64,000 nucleotides of DNA from Actinopolymorpha alba DSM 45243. GTDB lineage: Bacteria > Actinomycetota > Actinomycetes > Propionibacteriales > Actinopolymorphaceae. Numbering within the stretch: the stretch's first letter is position 1; each line of letters starts with the position of its first letter. A model generated the notes under the pieces. The model was not told the DNA's origin, ran no database searches, and was given only the letters and a program-made list of their open reading frames with translations. The stretch spans positions 248,001-312,000 of the forward strand of contig NZ_KB892707.1 in assembly GCF_000373925.1 (NCBI RefSeq), written 5' to 3'. The position numbers and the translations under genes are program-made. This document shows positions 45,608-50,730 of the stretch, in pieces.

Positions 45608-45750
45608 CAACCCTCCAGGCGCTCCGTGGGTGTTGTCCGGGTCTTTGGGCGCCGGCTCGATCCCCTCAGGTGGACCGGCCGGACATACTGGCGTCCCGGC
45701 GTCCGGTTGAATCTATCCGGGCCGGAGGCAGAGAGGCGGAGGTGAGCGGC

Positions 45751-47238
45751 GTGCCGCAGGTCGACCTCGCGGACGACTCGTTCGTCGTGGCGGGCCCCGC
45801 GGTGGTGGCCGACCGGCTGCGCGGCCCGGAGTTCTGGCGGGCGTGCTGGCCCGCGGTCGACCTCGAGCCCTACCACGATCGCGGGGACGAGGGCATGCGG
45901 TGGTACGCCACCGGCGCCCTGGTCGGCACGGCCGAACTCTGGCTCGAGCCGTACCACGACGGCACCCTCGTGCACGTGTTCCTGCGCGCGGACCCGGCGG
46001 AGGCGCTGCCGCCTGGGCGCCGGTTCGAGCGGTTCCGGCGACGCTTCGCGCTGTCTCTCAAGGCGGCGCTGTTCGCGCTGAAGGACGAACTGGAGGACGG
46101 CCGCGCGGTCGGGACCGGGCTGGGTACGCCGGCCGTCGATCCGGCCAGTGGCACTGGTCCGGTCGCTGAGCCAGAGCCGGCCGTCAACGTCGAGCCAGTC
46201 GCTGACGCCGAGCCGGCCGCTGACGCCGAGCCGGCCGCTGACGCCGAGCCGGCCGCTGACGCCGAGCCGGCCGCTGACGCCGCCTGGGCCGATCGGGCGG
46301 CGTATCGGCGATCCGCACCCGCGACGAGTGGCCTTACCCTGATGCTCTCCGAGCTGGCGTCCGGGGAGTCCGACGCCTACGAACTGGTCGACGTACGCCG
46401 GCTCGAGGGCGGCATCGCCACGGCGACCCACCGGATCACCGTGGCCTACGGTCCGGGGCGGACCGAGCGGCAGTTGATCCTGAAGCGGTACGTACCCGAC
46501 GACACGACGGCGACCCTGGAATGGGAGCGGTTGGCGTTCGCGGCGCGGTGCGGGATCCCGACGCCGGAGCCAGTCCTGCTCGACGCGGAAGGGCGGTGGT
46601 TCGGGAGCCCGGCCCTGGTGATGAGCGCGTTGCCGGGCGAGGTGAGGTACGACCACGCTGACCCGAAGGCCTGGGTGGCGGGACTCGCCACGGCGCTCGC
46701 GGCCGTCCATCGGACCGACCTGTCACCGCCGGTGCCCTCCGTCCTGCTCAGGACGCCGACCTGGCAGTCGTACGACCCATCGGAGCTGCCGCCCGGCCCG
46801 CGGACGGACGCCATCACCCGGGTCGTCGGCCGGCTGCGCGAGATCGCGGCCCAGCAACCCGTGGTGCTCTGCCACAGCGACTACCACCCGGGCAACGTGC
46901 TCTTCGAAGACGGCGTGGTCAGCGGTGTCGTCGACTGGAGTGCCGCCCGGCTCGAGCCGGCCGTCTCCGACGTGGCCAACTGCCGGGCTGAGCTGGCTCT
47001 GGTCGCCGGTGGCGAGCTGGCCGACCTGTTCCTCGCGGCCTACGTCAAGGCATCCGGCGGACCGCTCGACTCGCTGCCGTACTGGGATGTCCTCGCCGGT
47101 GCGCGCACGTCGCGCTGGATCGCGTACGCCGAGGAGGCGATGAACCCGTTGGGCGCGCAGGTGACCGCGGAGGGTGCCCGGAGCCGGGTGACGGCGTTTG
47201 TGGACGACGCCCTCGCGGCCGCCGAAGCGGATCTGTAG
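45751..47238 (+). CDS. Polyketide-cyclase/SRPBCC-like domain fused to APH-family kinase
   Basis: A 495-residue two-domain protein. Residues 1-130 (DDSFVVAGPAVVADRLRG, then ALVGTAELWLEPYHDGTLVH, ending in FALSLKAALFALKDELE) look like the actinobacterial lipid-binding/cyclase proteins that usually stand alone. A linker of AEPAAD repeats covers about 140-180. Residues 210-495 are an APH kinase: QLILKRYVP (ATP Lys), VVLCHSDYHPGNVLFED and GVVDWSAARLEPAVSDV (catalytic Asp, metal Asp). GTG 45751 has GGAGG eight bases upstream. The fusion suggests that one domain delivers a lipid-like ligand to the kinase. Confidence 0.75.
   Translation: MPQVDLADDSFVVAGPAVVADRLRGPEFWRACWPAVDLEPYHDRGDEGMRWYATGALVGTAELWLEPYHDGTLVHVFLRADPAEALPPGRRFERFRRRFALSLKAALFALKDELEDGRAVGTGLGTPAVDPASGTGPVAEPEPAVNVEPVADAEPAADAEPAADAEPAADAEPAADAAWADRAAYRRSAPATSGLTLMLSELASGESDAYELVDVRRLEGGIATATHRITVAYGPGRTERQLILKRYVPDDTTATLEWERLAFAARCGIPTPEPVLLDAEGRWFGSPALVMSALPGEVRYDHADPKAWVAGLATALAAVHRTDLSPPVPSVLLRTPTWQSYDPSELPPGPRTDAITRVVGRLREIAAQQPVVLCHSDYHPGNVLFEDGVVSGVVDWSAARLEPAVSDVANCRAELALVAGGELADLFLAAYVKASGGPLDSLPYWDVLAGARTSRWIAYAEEAMNPLGAQVTAEGARSRVTAFVDDALAAAEADL
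46189..46278. repeat. 18-bp tandem repeat encoding the AEPAAD linker
   Basis: Four exact units of GCCGAGCCGGCCGCTGAC (46207-46278) follow one degenerate unit. They join the cyclase-like and kinase domains and keep the frame. Confidence 0.92.
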
Positions 47239-48440: not shown

Positions 48441-49532
48441 ATGACCGTCGTACTCGCGATCGGCACCGGCAAGGGGCTGTTCCTCGCCCGCAGCGGCGAC
48501 GACCGGCACGAATGGCAGATCAGTGGGCCGCACTTTCCGATGACGGCGGTCTACTCCGTGGCCATCGACACCCGCCGACAGCCGGCCCGGCTACTGGTGG
48601 GCGTGAGCAGCTCCCACTTCGGACCCAGCGTCGCCATCAGTGACGACCTCGGCGAGACGTGGCAGGAGCCGGAGGTGGCTCCGATCGCGTTCCCGACCGA
48701 GACCGGCGCGGCGCTCGAACGCGTCTGGCAGTTGACTCCCGGCCGGGCGGACCAGCCCGACGTGATCTACGCCGGGGTCCAGCCGTCGGCGTTGTTCCGC
48801 TCCGAGGACGGCGGGCGGTCCTTCGCGCTGGTGCGCGGCCTGTGGGATCACCCGCACCGCGAGCACTGGGAGCCGGGGTTCGGCGGCAAGGCCGTGCACA
48901 CGGTGCTCCCGCATCCGACCGATCCCGCCAGGGTGGTTGTCGCCATGTCCACCGGCGGCGTCTACCGCACCAGTGACGGCGGCGCGACCTGGGAGGCCAC
49001 CAACACCGGCATCAAGGCGTATTTCCTGCCTGACAACCCCTATCCGGAGTTCGGTCAGTGTGTGCACAAGATCGCTCGCCATCCCGACCGGCCCGAGCAG
49101 TTCTTCGCCCAGAACCACCACGGCGTCTACCGCTCCGACGACGGCGGCTCCACGTGGGTGTCGATCGCGGATGGGCTGCCGAGCGACTTCGGCTTCCCCA
49201 TCGTGGTGCACCCCCACCGGCCGGGCGTCATCTACACCTTCCCGCTCACCGCTGACGGCCTGAGGTTCCCTCCGGAGGATCGCTGCCGTATCTACCGGAG
49301 CGAGGACGCGGGCTCGACCTGGACAGCCCTGGCGAAAGGCCTGCCGGAGGAGGGGTTCTACGCGACCGTGCTGCGCGACGCTCTCGCCTGCGACGACGCG
49401 GACCCAGCCGGTGTCTATGTCGGTGCTCGGTCGGGCGAGGTCTATGCCAGCGCAGACGAGGGCGAGAGCTGGCGGCTGGTGGCTTCCCACCTCCCGGACG
49501 TGCTCTGTGTCCGCGCGGCCGTGGTGGGGTGA
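48441..49532 (+). CDS. BNR-repeat beta-propeller protein (sialidase/VPS10-like fold)
   Basis: A 363-residue protein made of repeated BNR/Asp-box units: SEDGGRSFALV, TSDGGATWEAT, SDDGGSTWVSI, SEDAGSTWTAL and SADEGESWRLV. This predicts a six- or seven-bladed propeller, seen in sialidases and photosynthesis factor HCF136-like proteins. The Arg triad of true sialidases is not evident and there is no signal peptide, so it is probably a cytoplasmic binding propeller. ATG 48441 follows GGAGAGG. Its stop lies three bases before the MoaD/ThiS-like gene, which suggests a working pair. Confidence 0.85.
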   Translation: MTVVLAIGTGKGLFLARSGDDRHEWQISGPHFPMTAVYSVAIDTRRQPARLLVGVSSSHFGPSVAISDDLGETWQEPEVAPIAFPTETGAALERVWQLTPGRADQPDVIYAGVQPSALFRSEDGGRSFALVRGLWDHPHREHWEPGFGGKAVHTVLPHPTDPARVVVAMSTGGVYRTSDGGATWEATNTGIKAYFLPDNPYPEFGQCVHKIARHPDRPEQFFAQNHHGVYRSDDGGSTWVSIADGLPSDFGFPIVVHPHRPGVIYTFPLTADGLRFPPEDRCRIYRSEDAGSTWTALAKGLPEEGFYATVLRDALACDDADPAGVYVGARSGEVYASADEGESWRLVASHLPDVLCVRAAVVG

Positions 49533-49535
49533 GGC

Positions 49536-49835
49536 ATGACTCTTTCCGGTGTGCGGGTCGAGGTGCTGGTCCCGGCCGTGCTGCGTACTGACTGTGGGGG
49601 AGCGGCTCGGCTTTCTTTCGTCCTCTCCTCGCCCGCCACCCTCGGTGATCTGCTGGCGGAGGTCGCCGGCGCCCATCCCCGCCTCGAACGCCGGGTACGC
49701 GACGAGCAGGGTGCGATCCGTCGCTACGTCAACGTCTACGTCAACGGCGAGGAGGCTCGCTCCCGCGCTGGTGTCGCGACCCCGCTGCACGACGGCACAC
49801 AGGTGCAAATCGTCCCCTCGGTGGCTGGCGGCTGA
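49536..49835 (+). CDS. MoaD/ThiS-like ubiquitin-fold protein
   Basis: A 99-residue beta-grasp protein: VEVLVPAVLRTDCG, ATLGDLLAEVAGAHPRLERR, RYVNVYVNGEEAR and DGTQVQIVPSVAGG. The C-terminal Gly-Gly is the mark of sulfur carriers (MoaD, ThiS) and prokaryotic ubiquitin-like modifiers, whose end is adenylated by an E1-like enzyme. Neither an E1-like gene nor molybdopterin or thiamine genes are in the window, so the carrier's client is open. It starts three bases after the BNR gene stop. Confidence 0.88.
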   Translation: MTLSGVRVEVLVPAVLRTDCGGAARLSFVLSSPATLGDLLAEVAGAHPRLERRVRDEQGAIRRYVNVYVNGEEARSRAGVATPLHDGTQVQIVPSVAGG

Positions 49836-49848
49836 CCCTCACCGACCC

Positions 49849-50526
49849 TCAGGTCAGCACGTCCGCCGCGACCCTGAGGTCGGCGACGAGTCCGGCGTAC
49901 ACCTCGTCCTGGTTCTCGGCACGCAGCACCGCGGACGGGTGGATGGTGGCCACCACGACCGGCGCCGGCCGGTGTTCGGAGCGCTTCCCCGCGTGCTCGG
50001 AACGCTCGCCCAGGTTGGGGCGCGGCAGCGGGATGCCGCGCTGTTCGGTGACCTTGAACGCCGGCCCGAAGATCGCCTTCGCCGCGGTCGCGCCCAGGCA
50101 GATCAGGAGTTCGGGCTCGAGGAGGGCAAGCTCCGCCTCGAGCCAGGGACGGCACGCCAGGATCTCGGCGCGGTTGGGTGTCTTGTGCAGGCGCCGCTTG
50201 CCGCGTTCGGGCCGGGTGAACTTGAAGTGCTTGACGGCGTTCGTTACATAGGCGCGGGACCGGTCGATTCCGGCATCCACCAGGGCCTGGTCGAGCACCC
50301 TGCCCGCTGGTCCGACGAACGGCTGGCCGCGTCGATCCTCCTGGTCGCCCGGCTGCTCACCGAGCAGGACCACCCGGGCGTCGGGATCCCCGTCACCGAA
50401 GACGGTCTGGGTCGCCGACAGATAGAGGTCACAACCTTCGCATGACCTGGCCGCATCCTTCAGCCCGGCCAGGTCGGCATCCTCCGGGACGAACTCCGCG
50501 GCGGTGCGCGCCGGTATACGAGCCAT
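49849..50526 (-). CDS. udgX: Uracil-DNA-binding glycosylase UdgX
   Basis: A 225-residue family 4-like uracil-DNA glycosylase of the UdgX type. Four Fe-S cysteines are expected; CEGCDLY supplies the first two, ILACRPWLEAE the third, and no clear fourth is seen by eye. GEQPGDQEDRRGQPFVGPAG is the active-site motif, and the family-specific loop reads GKRRLHKTPNR, whose His forms the covalent uracil-site link in UdgX (the best-known protein has KRRIH). VVATIHPSAVLR is the last motif. ATG 50526 gives the usual length. It works alone in repair or uracil sensing. Confidence 0.92.
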   Translation of the reverse strand: MARIPARTAAEFVPEDADLAGLKDAARSCEGCDLYLSATQTVFGDGDPDARVVLLGEQPGDQEDRRGQPFVGPAGRVLDQALVDAGIDRSRAYVTNAVKHFKFTRPERGKRRLHKTPNRAEILACRPWLEAELALLEPELLICLGATAAKAIFGPAFKVTEQRGIPLPRPNLGERSEHAGKRSEHRPAPVVVATIHPSAVLRAENQDEVYAGLVADLRVAADVLT

Positions 50527-50730
50527 CACCTGCGCACCTACCCCGTCGTTCGCGTGCCAATCGATCCCGCGACGCTCCCGCGCGCCAGCGAAACCGCGTC
50601 GAACGGCCGCCCGCATCGAACCTGACGGCCGATGCGGGACAGCGCCGAAGCGGATCGGGGCTACGTCGGAGCGCGTGGATACGCTGGCGGCGGTCGGCGT
50701 GATCGGGAGCAGGTGTCAACGGAGGCTTGC

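Follow-up and report, generated by a model that had tools for sequence, protein, structure and literature searches.

The window, a stretch of 64,000 nucleotides from Actinopolymorpha alba DSM 45243, carries on its forward strand a gene of 363 codons (48441..49532, from the ATG at 48441 to the TGA at 49532) for an Asp-box (BNR) seven-bladed propeller, predicted to be cytosolic, and, after a gap of exactly three bases (GGC, 49533..49535), a small gene (49536..49835, from the ATG at 49536 to the TGA at 49835) for a 99 aa protein of the ThiS/MoaD family with a ubiquitin fold. A check of the open reading frames placed both genes and their three-base spacing on the + strand as the first-pass annotation had described them. 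The two genes lie in one common frame of the window sequence, and a GGAGAGG motif is found 5' of the ATG of the propeller gene. The Gly-Gly end ascribed to the small protein is present as well, since the translation of positions 49815..49832 gives the tail Pro-Ser-Val-Ala-Gly-Gly, that is, the protein ends in PSVAGG.

Profile matches identify UdgX, DUF3500 and APH genes as neighbours of the pair in the window. In particular, the UdgX gene, of a uracil-DNA-binding family, lies convergently on the - strand (49849-50616), 13 bases beyond the pair (TIGR03914, 239.8 bits against a cut-off of 189.95), and the APH-family phosphotransferase (45670-47238, + strand) has an N-terminal part with a repeated Glu-Pro-Ala-Ala-Asp-Ala run. 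With the genome's own JAB protease as query no match was obtained in the window, and the same holds for its own MoeZ-type E1 (0 matches); the single MoaE of the genome is on contig 43 and the window on contig 1, which bears out the earlier statement that no E1-like or molybdopterin gene is nearby.

The propeller scores above the cut-offs of PF15902 (56.6 bits, cut-off 33) and of PF02012 BNR (45.2 bits, cut-off 27), thus showing the Asp boxes looked for in a sialidase (GH33), and its relatives are mostly annotated as exo-alpha-sialidases or glycosyl hydrolases. The F/Y-RIP arginine motif, expected in GH33 sialidases, was not found in the window propeller, and a pattern of the type [FYL]R[IVL]P occurs in 2 of 160 propeller sequences, about 270 residues in. 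Assignment to the sialidases or to GH74 finds no support in this motif test or in the localisation. Two further candidates were rejected on their scores, namely YCF48 (PF14870, 23.3 against a cut-off of 27; NF010237, 24.6 against 326) and the F510_1955 glycosylhydrolase (NF045728, 82.1 against a cut-off of 175). With regard to localisation, Pseudomonas aeruginosa PA1356 is presumably the family member at locus L102, as its printed N-terminus is family-like and the gene order around pmpM agrees. The stretch of PA1356 used in a Tat export test resembles the first blade of the propeller family. In that test, the N-terminus of PA1356/PA14_46750 failed as a Tat signal (PMC6085387), in line with a cytosolic propeller.

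The nearest solved structure is 3b7f (E 3.7e-76, with almost full-length coverage; TM-score to the target 0.92), followed in the Foldseek ranking by GH74 enzymes, DAIP, YCF48 with the D1 peptide, and sortilin. Several of these matches bind peptides, so that binding of the small protein's tail by the propeller is plausible by analogy. Nine positions (K11, W96, W143, H153, H209, Q224, H226, R231 and R312) are each identical in 157-160 of the 160 propellers, across phyla, and most departures come from one distant Roseomonas protein; from this conservation pattern, these residues may form a ligand or active-site constellation. They are equally kept at loci devoid of the small gene. Comparing propellers that have the small gene with those that lack it yielded weakly distinguishing residues only (G124, R164, D272 and L311), and no interface residue could be named from it.

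The small protein matches PF02597 ThiS with 44.9 bits (cut-off 22.5) and stands narrowly above the SAMP1 model NF041918 (60.6 against a cut-off of 60), and its nearest solved relative is CysO (3dwg, E 2.7e-13), entered in the PDB listing as a culture filtrate antigen. The set of small proteins comprises 104 sequences, weighted towards relatives of the window, 103 of them complete and one (L128) cut by a contig end. Among the complete proteins, all adjoining or fused with a propeller, Gly-Gly is kept in 99, a nearly constant conservation of the end that the first-pass annotation had noted. Its placement is terminal in 73 and internal, within fusions, in 11, while 15 carry further residues after it (1-5 residues in 14 of these 15) and four lack it. 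The last four (L066, L079, L088 and L089) all belong to Nonomuraea/Streptosporangium, end in LPALA or similar, and are still encoded next to a propeller gene.

The natural fusions account for 11 of the 69 loci of an even sample described below; in these single polypeptides the small domain comes first, followed by Gly-Gly, a linker whose length ranges from 4 to at least 24 residues, and the propeller, and the internal Gly-Gly is kept in all 11.

Members of two bacterial phyla carry the pair. The even sample comprised 246 Actinomycetota genomes, of which 69, the window's own included, encode the propeller; leaving out the window's genome, all 69 loci of the other 68 genomes were examined. A small gene lies beside the propeller gene or is fused with it at 57 of the 69 loci and is absent at 12, one of these being cut by a contig end, and such recurrence excludes chance adjacency. 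Among the 80 nearest named propeller loci the small gene is directly downstream in 40. As for 17 plasmid records with a propeller, the small gene is adjacent by coordinates in at least nine, and it was present in five of the nine records whose loci were read. The gene order also varies, with the propeller first in the window and the small gene first in Pseudomonas, Mitsuaria, Burkholderia and Cupriavidus.

A broader set of 160 loci was assembled by leaving out duplicate views of the window's own loci (L003, L005, L008 and L090), six Kribbella-type near-duplicates (L093-L096, L098 and L099) and propellers shorter than 250 residues (L185, where the small gene is present). No such small gene was found in the examined flanks at 56 of these 160 loci, and, as the same nine positions are kept there, this carrier is dispensable for the propeller. 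In a quick tree computed for the 160 propellers, the state of the small gene, present or absent, switches at least 10 times and, among the loci having it, the arrangement switches at least four times. The 11 genomes with an unpaired propeller (the 12 loci minus the contig-cut one) contain 24 unlinked carrier matches, of which 22 were placed on a quick tree (L208 and L209 being left off) and all fall with CysO-like carriers, and the pair-less propellers may therefore borrow a CysO-like carrier. The carriers adjoining propellers, that of the window included, form a group separate from the CysO-like ones in a quick tree in which one of the two state changes is a 26-residue fragment (L004).

Neither an E1 nor a JAB gene was found by tblastn, with the genome's own MoeZ and JAB as queries, in the examined flanks of the 160 loci or in the window. 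As regards these genes, the relatives examined did not show the counter-evidence that the first-pass annotation had named, and the pair, itself conserved, matches no standard carrier operon. JAB protease genes occur in 66 of the 69 propeller genomes versus 109 of the 177 others (Fisher p 7e-9), a comparison that ignores ancestry and for this reason is weak evidence, and the JAB of propeller genomes may serve CysO.

Metabolic genes lie near the propeller gene in some relatives. Of the 35 loci with an ilvD-family dehydratase gene in the flank, 34 have it downstream of the propeller and in the same orientation, a count to which ten-odd Kribbella-type rows contribute, near-duplicates among them; these loci include L027, L035, L059, L106, a Rhodobacter locus (43% identity type) and Nocardioides. 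Because they are mostly Kribbella and Nocardioides relatives, this may be one inherited arrangement. Kribbella, Dactylosporangium, their relatives and one more family carry a D-2-hydroxyacid dehydrogenase gene upstream of the propeller and in its orientation (among others L021, L023, L027, L028, L031-L033 and L125). Clustering of the neighbours, disturbed by antisense frames, revealed no metabolic gene common to the pair loci of all lineages.

The genome of the window contains five ThiS-family genes. One is situated on contig 25 between two propeller genes (113579-116111; L005, L007 and L008) and its product ends in NVSGG, so that the genome holds a second copy of the module; a 2-hydroxyacid-dehydrogenase-like gene is found 85 bases off, on the opposite strand. 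On contig 3, about 1.2 kb separates a CysO-like gene from the sole Prok-JAB gene of the genome, and a further CysO-like carrier gene on contig 69 (4233-4493, L002) lies directly 3' of the gene for a PLP-dependent enzyme resembling threonine synthase. The best E1 match is a ThiF and rhodanese protein of the MoeZ type on contig 117, unlinked to the pair, and the small protein could consequently be loaded in trans. Matches of this genome to the ThiG model were no more than weak and partial.

Sulfur carriers of the ubiquitin fold are defined by the partner that they feed, such as MoaE, ThiG and CysM, and carriers have reportedly been described in Amycolatopsis by Sasaki et al. in 2014. The pair resembles MoaD/MoaE and MoaX in having a Gly-Gly-ending ubiquitin-fold carrier encoded with its partner, or fused to it with the Gly-Gly domain first, but the partner is here an Asp-box propeller and the MoaE of the genome is on another contig; moreover, cleavage after Gly-Gly is known for MoaX and is a prediction for the fusions of the pair. 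MoaX is a MoaD-MoaE fusion of Mycobacterium tuberculosis that is cleaved after Gly82, the cleavage being required for function (PMC4326299). With the actinobacterial CysO-CysM-Mec system the pair shares CysO as nearest solved carrier and a MoeZ-type E1 in the genome; in contrast, no mec (JAB) gene accompanies it in the window or at the 160 loci, and its carrier belongs to a separate group. Likewise, the small protein exceeds the NCBIfam model of Haloferax SAMP1 by 0.6 bits, but it is bacterial and paired with a propeller, and its conjugation to proteins is hypothetical. On the propeller side, 3b7f is Reut_B4987 of Ralstonia eutropha, a member of the same family whose structure was solved without the small protein and has no assigned function; it is given as 'Not known' in PMC2716378. 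The Cupriavidus metallidurans member of this family has the small gene directly upstream. YCF48, GH74, sialidases and sortilin share the Asp-box propeller fold, although the window propeller differs from YCF48 and the sialidases by its sub-threshold YCF48 scores and the missing RIP motif. The ThiS/MoaD and propeller families are each known and annotated; the propeller as partner of a carrier is not described in the literature searched, which leaves out most subscription journals, and the words 'propeller', 'BNR' and 'sialidase' do not appear in the main text of Iyer et al. 2006 (PMC1779556).

The reading that we favour, tentatively and at somewhat less than even confidence, is that the pair consists of a MoaD-type sulfur carrier and a dedicated propeller partner, probably an acceptor enzyme, with the E1 acting in trans; these elements account for the pairing, the fusions and the Gly-Gly tail. 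The C-terminal glycine of the carrier would be adenylated and thiocarboxylated by the shared MoeZ-type E1 of the cell, encoded elsewhere, and the loaded tail would be used at a pocket of the propeller, which would be the sulfur acceptor enzyme in the way that MoaE is for MoaD and CysM for CysO. A precedent for a shared E1 is the single MoeZR that loads several carriers, as set out in PMC3227635. Some lineages would produce the carrier in precursor form, either extended by a few residues beyond Gly-Gly or as a fusion with the propeller behind Gly-Gly, and this precursor would have to be cut after Gly-Gly as MoaX is. Thiocarboxylation, cleavage, complex formation, catalysis and the sulfur chemistry of the pair are thus what we infer from genes and comparisons. 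The carrier and acceptor model does not explain the propellers devoid of a carrier (56 of 160) or the four carriers lacking Gly-Gly.

Two AlphaFold predictions bear on the contact between the partners. The window pair, read through the stop as one chain with a two-residue linker, gave a pTM of 0.79 with the tail at a block mean confidence of about 49, and the read-through chain of the Kribbella locus L032, with a linker of about 28 residues, a pTM of 0.85 with the tail at a block mean of 44. The rise of predicted pTM with the longer linker, in runs lacking inter-domain error and a negative control, is at most suggestive, and no docking of the low-confidence tail on the propeller was seen in either of the two chains.

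A first alternative, unlikely though by no means negligible, is that the small protein acts non-covalently, as a ubiquitin-fold subunit or regulator of the propeller, and carries no sulfur, its Gly-Gly being a binding element or a relic; the propeller would then bind the tail by analogy with YCF48 and sortilin, whose peptide and ligand complexes are among the closest folds after 3b7f. This would agree with a Gly-Gly that is internal in the 11 fusions, trailed by residues in 15 more proteins and missing in four members, and with the absence of E1 and JAB genes from the examined flanks of all 160 loci; however, a Gly-Gly preserved in 99 of 103 proteins through fusions and changes of order exceeds the needs of the fold, and MoaX exemplifies a fused carrier that is still processed (PMC4326299). 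Rather improbable is a SAMP1-like modifier conjugated to proteins, of which the propeller would be a substrate, a reader or a ligase-like partner: the narrow excess over the SAMP1 model (60.6 against 60) and the frequency of JAB in propeller genomes (66/69 versus 109/177, ancestry ignored, with JAB possibly serving CysO) speak for it, but the pair has neither a JAB nor an E1 gene linked to it and CysO is a closer match than the SAMP1 structures. That an ordinary glycosidase has a stray CysO-like gene as chance neighbour is hardly credible, because the fusions and both gene orders contradict it and, even with the small gene absent at half of the 80 nearest named loci, the pair is found at 57 of 69 even-sample loci and in two phyla, with carriers that form their own group in the quick tree. 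Since a carrier, a conjugated modifier and a non-covalent partner are inseparable here, the sulfur transfer or protein tagging proposed in the first-pass annotation is kept as a hypothesis.

On the preferred reading of a carrier with a dedicated acceptor, the propeller is a recurrent carrier partner of a fold that the literature searched does not describe in this role, present in many soil actinobacteria, Pseudomonas and Burkholderia, for whose genes the labels 'exo-alpha-sialidase' and 'MoaD/ThiS family' are unhelpful. With the 3b7f structure, the simple two-gene arrangements and the natural fusions, the question lends itself to direct testing. It is possible, if on balance doubtful, that the pair represents a widespread bacterial system of sulfur transfer (or tagging) in which the propeller is a new type of acceptor and the carriers of several lineages are made as precursors and matured like ubiquitin or MoaX; the fusions and the extensions beyond Gly-Gly bear in this way on the maturation of ubiquitin-like precursors in bacteria.
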